Shown: positions 12,633 to 18,809, counted from the first letter of the stretch. The stretch: DNA of 36,687 bases from a bacterium (GCA_030693295.1 JAUYAT010000016.1:1-36687), one strand, 5' to 3'. The notes: generated from the letters alone by a model not told the origin. Numbers and translations: made by a program.

Positions 12633-12794
12633 TTATAATAATCTGCAAGACCTTTTAATTTCAGAATGGTTTAAGACTTTGTACTGCCCTTTAATTTCCA
12701 ATTTATAAAATATCCCATACTTTCCAGAATGTGGATCTTTGTTTTTGTGAATATTGCAATAATCAGACGGCAAAATACTGCTTTTATTTAACAT
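12633..12794 (-). CDS. Small 53-aa ORF overlapping the upstream stop codon
   Basis: ATG at 12794 inside ...GATGTTAAATAA; MLNKSSILPSDYCNIHKNKDPHSGKYGIFYKLEIKGQYKVLNHSEIKRSCRLL*. Absent from the ORF track (under 60 aa). Confidence 0.4.
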   Translation of the reverse strand: MLNKSSILPSDYCNIHKNKDPHSGKYGIFYKLEIKGQYKVLNHSEIKRSCRLL

Positions 12795-13719
12795 CCCCTA
12801 CCTCTATCTTCCTAACATCGCTATTCGTAATCCCTAATCCTAATTCCCGCATAATCCTAAATGCGTCTGCGGGCCGGCCGAGATAATACGCTTTTTTGTC
12901 TTTGGGGTAGATATAATACGCTTCACCGTTTTGTTCAACATCTAATAATATTTTTCCCAAAACATAGTCGGGGTAAATCGTGTGGCTGATTATAAACTGA
13001 TGCGTTGCGCCTAAGCCCAGTTTTCGCATTATGTCGAATGCGTCCGCCGGCCTGCCAAGATAATATTTCTTTTTATCGTCTGGATAAACATACCAGCCCT
13101 CGCCTTTCTCTTCAACCTGTAATAATATTTTACCCTCTATCTTTTTTATTAAATTATCATCCTTTTTGCTAAATAACCATTTTTCTCTTTCAACAGCAGC
13201 AGCATTAATTACAGCATTCTGGGCATGAGGCGCGCTATTTTGAATTAAATAGTCATCTTCCGAAATACACTTGCCGCCGCTCATTGTATATCCATAACCG
13301 CATTCGCAGATTTTATTTAAGCTATTATAACTTGAATGGTATCCGTATTTGTCACTGCAATAACTATTGCCGGATATACAGGATTCTTTTCCTAAAAAAT
13401 CTTTGCCAACAACATAGCCGTAATTGCACAAACAACTTTTAGAAATAGAATCGTAATAAGAGCTAAACGGGCAGGATGGAACAGGCGGAGGGCTGTATGA
13501 TGGGTAAGATGGGGTTGGTGTATAACCTCCGGAGCACCAAGGATAGTAAGGAGCGCATGTTGCCGACAATGATGTGCCGTCGCAACAAGAACACCCGCAA
13601 ACTCCACCGTGCCAAGAGCAACAACCGCTGCGAGCTTCTGCGGTTTCGGGAAAATAAAACCAGCCAATCACTACTACTAAGCAAATAATTAAACAGGTTA
13701 TTTTAATAAGATTTTTCAT
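12784..13719 (-). CDS. Secreted Cys-rich protein with two C-terminal YYLGRPADAF repeat domains
   Basis: Signal peptide-like N-terminus, Cys-rich region (GCCSWHGGVCGCSCCDG), tandem GKILLQVEEKGEGWYVYPDDKKKYYLGRPADAFDIMRKLGLG / GKILLDVEQNGEAYYIYPKDKKAYYLGRPADAFRIMRELGLG. Confidence 0.75.
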   Translation of the reverse strand: MKNLIKITCLIICLVVVIGWFYFPETAEARSGCCSWHGGVCGCSCCDGTSLSATCAPYYPWCSGGYTPTPSYPSYSPPPVPSCPFSSYYDSISKSCLCNYGYVVGKDFLGKESCISGNSYCSDKYGYHSSYNSLNKICECGYGYTMSGGKCISEDDYLIQNSAPHAQNAVINAAAVEREKWLFSKKDDNLIKKIEGKILLQVEEKGEGWYVYPDDKKKYYLGRPADAFDIMRKLGLGATHQFIISHTIYPDYVLGKILLDVEQNGEAYYIYPKDKKAYYLGRPADAFRIMRELGLGITNSDVRKIEVGDVK

Positions 13720-13793
13720 AATTTTTCTTGTCGCCTTACTTTAAATTTACTATTTTTTTATTTTTCAATCAACAAAATCACAAAATCCTAAAA

Positions 13794-15098
13794 TCATTCT
13801 GTAATTCCTTGATTAAATATAATCTCTAATAATTGAACTCCTTTTGAATAAATTATAGGTGGATTTCCTATTCCTTTATACCAATTAGAAAAATTGGGGT
13901 AAAAATTATAATCTCCTGAACTTACCAATTTTGTTTTAAAAAATTTCTCTGCCACTAAATAAGAAAAATAGATTTTGCCGTCCTCTGGTCGTTCCTTCGA
14001 AAAATTATATTTTTTTTCACTTTCCATCCAGACAATATACGGAATATTGTTTTTATCTGTTGCTATGCTTGGGAAAAACTGATAGGTATTTGACGGGGCG
14101 ACAATAATAGATTTTGACCATTTGCCATTTTCAAAATACGAATAATGTATTTGCGTTTGGTCGCTATTGCTTGTTTTAGATCTCCAGACAACATGCAAAA
14201 CTCCTTTCCGATCAACACAAGCGCTAATATGTCTAGCGTCAAAAGACGAATTAGAAACATTTTGCCAAACGCTCCAATTATTTCCACCATCGTTTGAATA
14301 AGAACGCCAGACTTGCTGTATCGGCTCGCCCAAAGAGGAATACATCAACACATGCAACATTTCCTTGTTGTCTTGCAAAATGCTGGGGCGGGATTGAGAG
14401 TTATTTGGCGAAATACCAATGTTAATCCACTTACCCCATGATTGTCCTTCGTCGACAGATTTAATAAATTTGACTTGCTGATTTTTATTTTCTGAATCTT
14501 TTCCTTCCCACACTACATATAATTTGTCATCATCTCCAACAAAAATATTTGGGTGTTCTTGCCAGTAATCATCGCTAGAATATCCAAAAACCGGCGAGAT
14601 GTTTTTCCATTCATTCCAAGTGTTTCCGCCGTCAGTTGATTTCGAGTACTTTATTTGTCTGTTGTTCGATTCATTTTGAAAATCAGAACCATACCAAACA
14701 ATATGAAGGAAGTCCTTTGAATCTATCGCGATAGACGGCACTCGTTGATCAGATTCTATGAAAGCAATCGGTTTATTTGTCCCCGAAATTATCCATTCGC
14801 TATCTTGCGCTTTGCTTAATTTAGCGACAAAAATTTGATAGTAGCCGTCATATTTTTTGCGATAAGCAACATAAAAATTGCCGTTTTTGTCTTCTGCTAT
14901 TTTTCGCTGTCCCGGGTAGCCAAGTGCCGCGATGTCTTCTGTATTATCAACTATAATTTGTTTGGGCTCGGTATGATTTATTTGTAAGTCTTGTTTAACT
15001 TCTGATTTGCTTAAAAATTCTTTAGACAAAATAATTAACAAAATTAAAATAACGACAAGTAAAATTAATTTATTGTATTTTTTGAATAAGATTATCAT
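13794..15098 (-). CDS. Membrane-anchored Asp-box (BNR) beta-propeller, sialidase-like fold
   Basis: N-terminal TM helix, then STDGGNTWNEW, SVDEGQSWGKW, SNDGGNNWSVW Asp-box motifs. Confidence 0.8.
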   Translation of the reverse strand: MIILFKKYNKLILLVVILILLIILSKEFLSKSEVKQDLQINHTEPKQIIVDNTEDIAALGYPGQRKIAEDKNGNFYVAYRKKYDGYYQIFVAKLSKAQDSEWIISGTNKPIAFIESDQRVPSIAIDSKDFLHIVWYGSDFQNESNNRQIKYSKSTDGGNTWNEWKNISPVFGYSSDDYWQEHPNIFVGDDDKLYVVWEGKDSENKNQQVKFIKSVDEGQSWGKWINIGISPNNSQSRPSILQDNKEMLHVLMYSSLGEPIQQVWRSYSNDGGNNWSVWQNVSNSSFDARHISACVDRKGVLHVVWRSKTSNSDQTQIHYSYFENGKWSKSIIVAPSNTYQFFPSIATDKNNIPYIVWMESEKKYNFSKERPEDGKIYFSYLVAEKFFKTKLVSSGDYNFYPNFSNWYKGIGNPPIIYSKGVQLLEIIFNQGITE

Positions 15099-17880
15099 TT
15101 GCCTCGTTTAATTTAATTTCTTCTTTATTATAGCCATTTTTCAAACTGTCTTTAATCAAGTTGCCAACAACATTTTTTATATAAACTCCTTTTATATTAT
15201 CTTTAATAAAATTACTTACAATAAAATTATTATCGGCGTTATCGTAGAGAAATATGCCGTTTTCATTAGCTGTAATTTTATTCTGCTCAAGGTAATTTCC
15301 GGAAGAATTAACATTGGCGCGAATACCGCTTTCGTTCTCTCTAATTTCGTTATTTCTAATCAAATTATTGTGAGAATCATAAATAGCGATACCATCAATA
15401 TTGCCGTAAGTAATATTATTCTCTATGAGATTATTATTTGACTGCCTGTCAAGCATTATACCATGAAGTTTATTATTATAAGAAGTATTATTTCTAAAAA
15501 TATTATTAAAACACCTTTTTGAAATAATTATCCCATGATTTCCATTATCATAAGAAATGTTGTCTTCTATAATGAAATTATTTGAATCATCGTGTGGATC
15601 AAAACCATACTGAACATTATCATAAAATTCATTATTTCTAAAAATCATTCCTGTAGCGCCAAATGTATAAATTCCAAAATAATTATTATGAAATTTACTG
15701 TTTATTATATTGCCTGTAATTAAATAGTTCTTAAATGAACCGTTGGGAATTTTCCACGAAACACCATATGAGCCACCGAAAGGTTGCCCTTGAAGATATG
15801 CTCCATAATAACCGTACCCTAAAAAAGCTAATTCAGAATTTATAACATCCATTCTGCCATCATGCTTTGCCAATATCAAACTACGCCCATCTTCGGGGTT
15901 GCTATCTGGCTTTTGCTTATCTTCGTCCCATGAAGTTATTTTAGTATTTTTTATTAAAACTCTCCCATTATAAGAACGAATAACCACAAAATTATTTTCG
16001 TTGCTTAATAACTTTAACCATGATACTTCACCTCCATCCAATACGAAAGAAACATCTCTGTCTATAAAAAGATTAGCTCTTAATACCCATTCTTTATTTT
16101 CCAGTTTTTCAATAATTTGTTTATCATTTAAAATATTGTAAATTTTTGAAAGTGTTACTATACTTCCTTCTCTTTTAACATAAACAGTGTTATCGGATTC
16201 ATCAAAAAAAATTTCAGGCTCTATATGGAAAACTAATTTATCTTTTTCAAGTGTGTTTCTTAATTCTGAAACAGGAATCACAATTAACTGCCCCAGTTCT
16301 ATGTGGTTAGGATTTGGAATGGTTTCTTTATTCGCTTCAATGATTGCTGATAAATTACCATTATATCGCCAAGCAATTTTTGATAAAGTATCACCTTTTT
16401 TAATTATATAATATCCAAATTGTTCATTTTCTAATTTATTAAGAATATCCTGTTTATATTTATCTGTATCTATATCTATATCGCTTGTACCGTTAAAATT
16501 AACATTATTCGCAATATTAACGGAAACAACGGCATTTCTGTTTTTCATCGTACTTATATTTTGAGCATCGTCGGCAACGACATTTTTATAGCTCACTACG
16601 CCAAAACTTAATAATAATAATATTGAAGCAGTAGCTGTATACGGCATAAACGATTTTAACAGTCCCCAAAAACGACTTCCATTGGATTGTAAACGGCTTT
16701 TGTCCCATCTTGTTATCCAACCTTGTTGCCTAATTGTAACCATCGCATAAATTTTTAAAACCGCCAATAGATAAGTAGTGGCGATGTAAACGGGTAATAT
16801 CAGAATATCTGCCGGACGATGTTTTAAATGAGGATATAATTTTATGCCACGGCTAAAATGCCACCATGTAAATAATATAACTGCTATCAGCCAGTGCCCC
16901 CAAATAATGGAAAGCGCAAAATAAATGGGGCCAAGAATAAGTGTAAGCGGTTGAGTGAATCTATCAATCATATGAAAAGCCAAAAATTTCTCTCTTTTCC
17001 ATATCCATTTACTTGTCAAAGATTTAAGGTCGGATCTATAGGTATTTCGCGTCCATCTCATTTGCTGTTTTAATAAAGTAAGCACATCGGGGGCGCCCGG
17101 AGTAAGCACAAGCGCATTGCCCTGATATCTAACTTTCCATCCATCTTGCTGGACTAGTCTGGTAAGACATTTATCGTCTCCACTAATACACTTAGCGCCC
17201 AAAAAAGTTTCATTTTCAAGATCATCGCATAAATTTTTAATGGCGCTTGCTCTATATATCGCCGTTCTGCCGGAAATGCATGTTAAACCATTTGCGACAG
17301 TGGCAAGATATGTCATTTCATCATAATATCTATGGTCAATATGAATATTAAATAATTTGCGGGCAAGCGTATTGATACTTAGAACATCTTGTCTTGGCCC
17401 AACTCCGCCTACCGAAGGATCTTTAAAGGGAGCCAACATAATTTTTTTTATATTCGGTTCCCAAATAGTGTCACTATCTACAAGCGCAATAATATTATAT
17501 TTAGCTGCTTTTATGCCGTCTGACAAAGCTTCTCTTTTGCCTGGCCTTTTTGTAATAATAAGTCTACCAATTTTATTTTTATTTTGGAATTTTTTAAATT
17601 CTTCTACGCAGGTTTTATCAGTGTAATCTATCACAGCAATAATTTCGTCTGGGTTATTATTTTTCCAAGACTCTAAAGCTCTTTTAAAAATATCTCTATC
17701 TTCATTATATACCGGAACCACAATTGACAATGTGTCCATATAGCCATTTTCTTGGATTGGCTTATACCCTGAGGCGATTATTTTTTTAATAGACCAAATA
17801 AACCAACGCCAAATACCAATAATACCCAATGGAAAATAGGGAGTAAGAATATGAAAATAATTGTTTAACTGTTCAAACAT
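15070..17880 (-). CDS. Processive GT2 polysaccharide synthase fused to LysM and AlgG-like right-handed beta-helix
   Basis: GT2: SIVVPVYNE, DSDT, SGDDKCLT, KQQMRW. LysM: YYIIKKGDTLSKIAWRYNGNLSAIIEANKETIPNPNHIELGQLIVIP. Beta-helix with YGFDPHDDSNN...HGIIISKR...SYNNKLHGIMLDRQSNNN resembling the AlgG DPHD region. Confidence 0.88.
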   Translation of the reverse strand: MFEQLNNYFHILTPYFPLGIIGIWRWFIWSIKKIIASGYKPIQENGYMDTLSIVVPVYNEDRDIFKRALESWKNNNPDEIIAVIDYTDKTCVEEFKKFQNKNKIGRLIITKRPGKREALSDGIKAAKYNIIALVDSDTIWEPNIKKIMLAPFKDPSVGGVGPRQDVLSINTLARKLFNIHIDHRYYDEMTYLATVANGLTCISGRTAIYRASAIKNLCDDLENETFLGAKCISGDDKCLTRLVQQDGWKVRYQGNALVLTPGAPDVLTLLKQQMRWTRNTYRSDLKSLTSKWIWKREKFLAFHMIDRFTQPLTLILGPIYFALSIIWGHWLIAVILFTWWHFSRGIKLYPHLKHRPADILILPVYIATTYLLAVLKIYAMVTIRQQGWITRWDKSRLQSNGSRFWGLLKSFMPYTATASILLLLSFGVVSYKNVVADDAQNISTMKNRNAVVSVNIANNVNFNGTSDIDIDTDKYKQDILNKLENEQFGYYIIKKGDTLSKIAWRYNGNLSAIIEANKETIPNPNHIELGQLIVIPVSELRNTLEKDKLVFHIEPEIFFDESDNTVYVKREGSIVTLSKIYNILNDKQIIEKLENKEWVLRANLFIDRDVSFVLDGGEVSWLKLLSNENNFVVIRSYNGRVLIKNTKITSWDEDKQKPDSNPEDGRSLILAKHDGRMDVINSELAFLGYGYYGAYLQGQPFGGSYGVSWKIPNGSFKNYLITGNIINSKFHNNYFGIYTFGATGMIFRNNEFYDNVQYGFDPHDDSNNFIIEDNISYDNGNHGIIISKRCFNNIFRNNTSYNNKLHGIMLDRQSNNNLIENNITYGNIDGIAIYDSHNNLIRNNEIRENESGIRANVNSSGNYLEQNKITANENGIFLYDNADNNFIVSNFIKDNIKGVYIKNVVGNLIKDSLKNGYNKEEIKLNEANDNLIQKIQ
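15589..15600 (-). other. DPHD motif codons in the AlgG-like beta-helix
   Basis: gatccacacgat on the minus strand = D-P-H-D. Confidence 0.75.
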
Positions 17881-17933: not shown

Positions 17934-18809
17934 TTATTTCAAACCATTATATTTTTCCTTTATGGTTTCGTTTACTTTAATAATCGCTTTTAGTAAAGGC
18001 ATTGGATTTTTCAATTCATCCCTAGCCCACGCAGAAAAAGCAGTCGTATCTTTGGGAAGACAACTTCCACCATAAGGACCAAAATCTCTAATCCCGTATT
18101 TTGGATTCCATGAAGCTTCGGCGCTTTTTTCCACTAATTCAAAAACTTTATCGGCGTCTACATTAATTGCTTCGCAAACCATTCTCATTTCGTTGAAAAA
18201 TGAGATTTTGCAGGCATTAAAGAGATTATGCGCGTATTTTTGAATTTCAGCCTCTTTCAGAGACACATGGACTATAGGGCAACTGCTGTGATTGCATATT
18301 TCTTCCAGCATCTCGCCGGATCTGCAATCCAATTCTCCGATAGTGAGAATCCACGGATTTTTAAAATCCTCTTCATTAGAAACTTCCCGCAGATATTCCG
18401 GGTTCATGCAAACTCCGAAGTCTTTGCCCGCTTTTTTGCCGGAATATTTTTCCAAAATTGGAATCAAGACATCTTCTGTAGTCCCAGGCGGCACAGTGCT
18501 CCTTACGACAATTAGACAATAGGCGTCAGTTCGCTCCTTAAGCCCCCCCCCTAAATTAGCAACGGCAGATTTGAGAAAATTCAATTCAATTTTACCATCA
18601 ACCGTCGGGGTAGAAACTGTTAAGAAAAAAGCTTCCACTTCTTCTCTCGCAAGCGAATCAGGCAAGCAAACACAATGTCCCTCATTTTTCAATTTTGCCA
18701 AAGTGTCAGGGTTGATATCGCAAAAAACGACATCGTGCCCTTTGGCAATAAGCCCTTTTCCTGTGGCTTGTCCAACGACTCCACTTCCGATTATTGCTAT
18801 TTTACTCAT
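17934..18809 (-). CDS. UDP-glucose/GDP-mannose dehydrogenase family protein, short form
   Basis: IIGSGVVGQATGKGL NAD site, VRSTVPPGTT, MNPEYLRE, GPYGGSCLPKDT catalytic Cys; only 291 aa. Confidence 0.9.
   Translation of the reverse strand: MSKIAIIGSGVVGQATGKGLIAKGHDVVFCDINPDTLAKLKNEGHCVCLPDSLAREEVEAFFLTVSTPTVDGKIELNFLKSAVANLGGGLKERTDAYCLIVVRSTVPPGTTEDVLIPILEKYSGKKAGKDFGVCMNPEYLREVSNEEDFKNPWILTIGELDCRSGEMLEEICNHSSCPIVHVSLKEAEIQKYAHNLFNACKISFFNEMRMVCEAINVDADKVFELVEKSAEASWNPKYGIRDFGPYGGSCLPKDTTAFSAWARDELKNPMPLLKAIIKVNETIKEKYNGLK
18543..18551 (-). repeat. G9 homopolymer inside dehydrogenase CDS
   Basis: Plus strand CCCCCCCCC; minus strand TTA GGG GGG GGG CTT = LGGGL. Confidence 0.9.

Follow-up and report, generated by a model that had tools for sequence, protein, structure and literature searches.

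The window, by which we mean the whole stretch of DNA analysed here (36,687 nucleotides), is part of a 1.06-Mb genome in 62 contigs that belongs to the Patescibacteria (CPR) and shares its class with the Candidatus Falkowbacteria genome of locus L021, discussed below. On the minus strand lies a single ORF in which a GT2 synthase, a LysM domain and an AlgG-like beta-helix are joined (Table 1). A preliminary description had placed a 936-aa ORF with GT2, membrane, LysM and beta-helix parts here, leaving out the strand, and the ORF and every motif are indeed present: DSDT (residues 135-138), SGDDKCLT (233-240) and KQQMRW (271-276) in the synthase, and YGFDPHDDSNN (758-768) and HGIIISKR (782-789) in the helix, where Pfam also finds a beta-helix match at residues 724-822 (4.6e-24).

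Table 1. Features of the fusion cluster and short dehydrogenases of related clusters (window positions unless a locus is named; residues are those of the fusion protein)
Feature	Position	Strand	Basis
GT2 synthase - LysM - AlgG-like beta-helix fusion, 936 aa	15070..17880	-	translation, Pfam, NCBIfam, homologous fusions L021, L022, L036, L037
GT2 catalytic core, residues 51-279 (DSDT, SGDD, QQMRW)	17044..17730	-	Pfam PF13641, 1e-23; hyaluronan synthases are the best PDB matches
Membrane segments, residues ~11-36, 310-344, 358-380, 411-436	16573..17850	-	hydropathy scan
LysM, residues 491-536	16273..16410	-	PF01476, 1.8e-12
AlgG-like right-handed beta-helix, residues ~560-936	15073..16203	-	AlgG sequence match, AlphaFold2, Foldseek
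Putative catalytic motif Y758-G-F-D761-P-H763-D764 (AlgG Tyr314 ... DPHD, His319)	15589..15609	-	alignment with P. syringae and Rhizobium AlgG
K788-R789, position of AlgG Arg345	15514..15519	-	alignment
GDP-mannose-6-dehydrogenase-like enzyme, 291 aa	17934..18809	-	Pfam; best PDB match GMD 1mfz; tree
Membrane-anchored BNR-repeat protein, probable beta-propeller	13794..15098	-	Pfam BNR_4; N-terminal membrane segment
Short two-domain dehydrogenases, catalytic Cys motif kept	window 17934-18809; L021 7076-7930; L022 7055-7936; L037 8875-9786		

Because a K/R-rich stretch (WITRWDKSRLQSNGSRFWGLLK) precedes the last membrane segment of the fusion (411-436), the positive-inside rule would put the LysM domain and the helix outside the cell. 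The full-length AlphaFold model is poor (pLDDT 52.7), so the topology rests on hydropathy, by which both domains are predicted to be extracellular. The hydrophobic, signal-like starts that hydropathy reveals in separate homologous epimerases of L021 and the Candidatus Nomurabacteria locus L022 agree with an outside helix.

The dehydrogenase gene lies 53 bp upstream of the fusion and the BNR gene overlaps the end of the fusion gene by 29 bp, a spacing consistent with an operon. A homologue of the BNR protein with 43% identity is found in the fusion cluster of genome G340 (L037 9831-11204), where the gene order is BNR, dehydrogenase, fusion; the two share the invariant motifs DYWQEHP, YVVWEGKDS and DARH. 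Among PDB sequences the BNR protein matches just Asp-box sialidases, with E values of at least 0.01, and it is possibly a beta-propeller lyase or a polymer-binding protein. Window positions 12784-13719 encode a putative surface protein with two KILLxVExxGExxYxYPxDKKxYYLGRPADAFxIMRxLGLG repeats, a Cys-rich N-terminal half and no Pfam match.

Homologous fusions are carried by four other Patescibacteria genomes, with 43-67% identity over most of their length: 67% for L021, 63% for L022, and 45% and 43% for L036 (genome G417) and L037, which represent two genera of one family in the same phylum. The L022 fusion has a truncated helix, and Pfam detects no LysM in that of L036. The fusion is rare and patchy in distribution. 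It occurs in three of 384 genomes in a draw from the phylum (the window included), in two of 30 in the order of G340 and in two of 384 in the class; it is absent from 97 other members of the window’s order, and the viral contigs hold no relative. The preliminary description had raised the concern that the ORF might be a chimera joined in assembly. A chimera of unrelated genes could come from assembly or gene calling, and GC content along the window is uneven enough to invite this (28.6% in LysM and helix and 35.8% in GT2, against 45-49% in flanking housekeeping genes, the ftsH-like gene being at 49%). However, the same fusion recurs in the four other genomes, one of them a single 897-kb contig, and the low GC of the cluster is consistent with horizontal acquisition. 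A chance arrangement and a chimera are both rejected on these grounds, and we give the chimera practically no credence.

The best PDB sequence match of the helix is P. syringae AlgG (1e-31 with the single sequence, 3e-37 with a profile), a match that spans ~290 residues. The NCBIfam AlgG model NF038177 matches residues 575-855 of the fusion (1.1e-37) with 129.9 bits, under its full-length equivalog cut-off of 700 bits, as is the 287.5 bits of a Rhizobium AlgG from a canonical operon. When the AlphaFold2 model of the helix (pLDDT 88.6) is compared by Foldseek, AlgG 4nk6 is again the best match (6.5e-22, TM 0.76), followed by AlgE4, with NosD at rank 45. A generic NosD/pectate-lyase helix, the outcome against which the preliminary description had set its own proposal, is rejected since sequence and fold both favour AlgG by far; the Pfam NosD match on the fusion is a reflection of the helix repeats.

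In AlgG the His of the DPHD motif abstracts the proton, Tyr314 is the water/proton donor and an Arg neutralises charge (PMC4444821). Our alignment pairs Tyr314, Asp317, Pro318, His319, Asp320 and His339 of P. syringae AlgG with Y758, D761, P762, H763, D764 and H782 of the fusion, and the Tyr, the DPHD and the second His are likewise kept in the L037 and L036 fusions. Arg345, which we take to be the carboxylate-neutralising Arg of AlgG, is not kept: its place is occupied by Lys in the window (K788, with R789 adjacent) and in L037, by Val in L036 and by Gln in the separate epimerases. The likeness to the AlgG catalytic region noted at the outset thus extends to the Tyr, the DPHD and the second His and stops short of the catalytic Arg. 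We infer epimerase activity of this AlgG-like helix from the aligned catalytic residues.

The fate of this site differs among the relatives. It reads H-G-L-N-I-H-N in the fused helix of L021 and Y-G-I-D-I-R-N in that of L022, and in both clusters the next gene after the fusion codes for an AlgG-like secreted protein whose motif is DPHD or DTHD. Site loss is limited to these two, and the three fusions that retain the Tyr, the DPHD and the second His (window, L036 and L037) have no separate epimerase gene nearby. One catalytic-looking site is retained per cluster, which we take as strong evidence, albeit from only five genomes, that the activity of the epimerase site matters; in L021 and L022 the epimerase task may have shifted to a separate secreted paralogue while the fused copy decayed. 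These observations bear on a different role for the helix, in which it would be a polymer-binding scaffold or a lyase that trims the chain. Such a role would suit the unconserved charge-neutralising Arg, the motif lost from the fused copies of L021 and L022, and the match of the helix model to 8ja4, an alginate epimerase/lyase fold. However, 8ja4 is a much poorer match than AlgG, the Tyr, DPHD and second His are kept jointly in exactly those fusions without a nearby separate epimerase, and the separate copies retain DPHD or DTHD where the fused site is lost. We regard a helix that is no epimerase as decidedly unlikely and favour an AlgG-like epimerase.

The synthase domain has the features of a processive GT2 of the HAS/NodC type, namely DxD, GDD, QxxRW and membrane segments, and its closest NCBIfam match is NodC. 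Its identity to Alg8 is 22% (7e-7); a Streptomyces GT2 (33%) and hyaluronan synthases are better matches. In a GT2 tree all five fusions fall into a single clade, apart from that of Alg8, which has a long branch. Alg8 orthology is rejected on both counts, the kinship being no closer than the general GT2 level, and no Alg44-like copolymerase was seen among the clusters read. A related GT2 occurs on a Curtobacterium plasmid, in an operon (L048 7917-12488) that also encodes a glycosyl hydrolase and a nucleotide-sugar dehydrogenase of full length; the operon is probably another polymer synthesis locus.

A short dehydrogenase is encoded directly upstream of the fusion in the window, L021, L022 and L037; none was found in the ~3.3 kb examined upstream of the fusion in L036. 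The window enzyme matches GMD in the PDB at 1e-45 versus 2e-38 for the best UGD, and a profile of the four short dehydrogenases matches GMD at 1.4e-58 versus 4e-45 for UGD. In a tree in which reference alginate operons were recognised by Alg8 orthologues beside a GMD gene, a branch with 97/94 support unites the short dehydrogenases, which make up one side of it, with GMDs from the alginate operons of three alphaproteobacteria, apart from the UGDs. Among named enzymes NCBIfam scores the window dehydrogenase best as UDP-glucose 6-dehydrogenase AglM, and in BLAST against plasmids an AglM-annotated enzyme scores nearly equal; the tree nevertheless disfavours a UDP-glucose dehydrogenase as the partner. 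All four short dehydrogenases are missing the C-terminal nucleotide-binding domain (UDPG_MGDP_dh_C, PF03720), which is absent also from the searched sequence of the window’s genome. A second short dehydrogenase, only distantly related, is encoded at G000:C19 (L063 3977-4951).

For precursor supply, the window’s genome encodes a bifunctional GMP/PMI (TIGR01479, 494.6 bits against a cut-off of 373) and a phosphohexomutase of the phosphomannomutase/phosphoglucomutase family; GDP-mannuronate is the probable precursor. In three of the five genomes (G340, G417 and that of L022) no GMP/PMI was found; these bacteria may obtain GDP-mannose by another route or use another substrate. Indeed, the synthase might make some other uronic-acid polymer, for example a hyaluronan-like one or glucuronan from UDP-GlcA, which the helix would epimerise or bind. 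The kinship of the GT2 to hyaluronan synthases (PDB) and NodC (NCBIfam), the AglM ranking of the dehydrogenase and the three genomes without GMP/PMI speak for this. However, the dehydrogenase groups with alginate-operon GMDs, the helix match is specific to mannuronan epimerases, and the L022 cluster includes a gene for a PL7 alginate lyase (PF08787, 3.3e-40). We consider another polymer unlikely. A uronic-acid polymer as the product, as initially proposed, gains support from the GMD-clade dehydrogenase and the PL7 lyase, and because of these two we narrow it to mannuronan, that is, alginate.

Besides its lyase domain, the PL7 protein (L022 12211-13635) carries an F5/8 C-type domain and, at its C-terminus, a membrane segment. 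In the L021 cluster, a beta-helix protein (13043-14617) is 53% identical to one (L050 21990-23105) encoded beside the alginate operon of Rhizobium sp. T136, and this secreted protein may be an unrecognised part of alginate systems. In that canonical operon, too, AlgG is part of a fusion: it makes up the C-terminal portion of a 1255-aa protein (L050 9601-13368), whose N-terminal ~700 residues have no Pfam match.

Taken together, we think it probable that the fusion is an Alg8-independent mannuronan (alginate) synthase with its own C5-epimerase, which would move alginate across the one membrane that a monoderm cell has. GDP-mannuronate would be supplied by the GMD-type enzyme encoded just upstream and polymerised by the cytoplasmic GT2, and the chain would pass, by analogy with the HAS family mechanism, via the protein’s own membrane helices. 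The LysM domain, to judge from its family, probably holds the fusion to peptidoglycan, and the tethered helix outside would convert mannuronate to guluronate on the emerging chain. The monoderm fusion would take the place of the separate Alg8, Alg44 and AlgG that Gram-negative alginate systems have, and of their components for export through the outer membrane. Points that count against this model are the unkept Arg345, the truncated dehydrogenase, the GMP/PMI missing from three of five genomes, the distance of the GT2 from Alg8, the lack of a dehydrogenase in the stretch examined upstream of the L036 fusion, the clusters' want of an Alg44-like copolymerase and the poor full-length structure model.

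In known alginate makers polymerisation and epimerisation are carried out by separate proteins, and the known bacterial systems employ about a dozen proteins across two membranes, the polymerase being Alg8. We know of no alginate production in reduced-genome bacteria of this kind, and a search of the open-access literature, whose coverage is incomplete, turned up no account of a fusion like this one or of Patescibacteria that synthesise alginate. From the genes it would appear that a single chain with a non-Alg8 synthase unites polymerisation, inner-membrane export and epimerisation. In brown algae the mannuronan synthase is unidentified and the algal GT2s are without homology to Alg8 (PMC11468063), and for this reason the fusion deserves a test. 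Were the polymer mannuronan, its GT2 would be a second synthase type and a direct lead to the brown-algal enzyme. We put at about even the chance that these proteins of single-membrane Patescibacteria make alginate and represent a second class of bacterial mannuronan synthase, one that is independent of Alg8 and carries its own C5-epimerase, and that they offer a template for finding the brown-algal synthase. If true, they would also offer a compact enzyme for alginates of set composition.

Compared with known systems, the fusion combines features that are otherwise found apart. It shares with the Alg8-Alg44 complex the expected substrate GDP-mannuronate, a processive GT2 reaction and a linked GMD gene, but its GT2 lies outside the Alg8 clade, and Alg44, AlgE, AlgK and AlgX were not seen in the cluster. 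With the hyaluronan synthase/NodC/PgaC GT2s it has in common DxD, GDD and QxxRW with their spacing and C-terminal membrane segments followed by a W-x-T-R motif; it differs from them in the membrane segment, LysM and beta-helix added at its C-terminus and in a partner dehydrogenase that is GMD-like rather than UGD-like. That partner resembles GDP-mannose 6-dehydrogenase (AlgD, 1mfz) in its GGSCLPKD motif, its conserved Glu, Lys and Asn and its position in the tree, and is distinguished by having just the NAD-binding and central domains. The beta-helix and the YG-x-DPH motif are common to the fusion and the AlgE4-type epimerases, which, however, are secreted, Ca-dependent and built with multiple R-modules, and which match the fusion helix less well in sequence and fold. 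The helix is closest to AlgG (P. syringae 4nk6), with whose fold, Tyr314, DPHD with His319, and His339 it agrees; whereas AlgG is a separate soluble periplasmic protein with Arg345, the corresponding domain here has Lys at that position and is joined to its polymerase via a LysM spacer.
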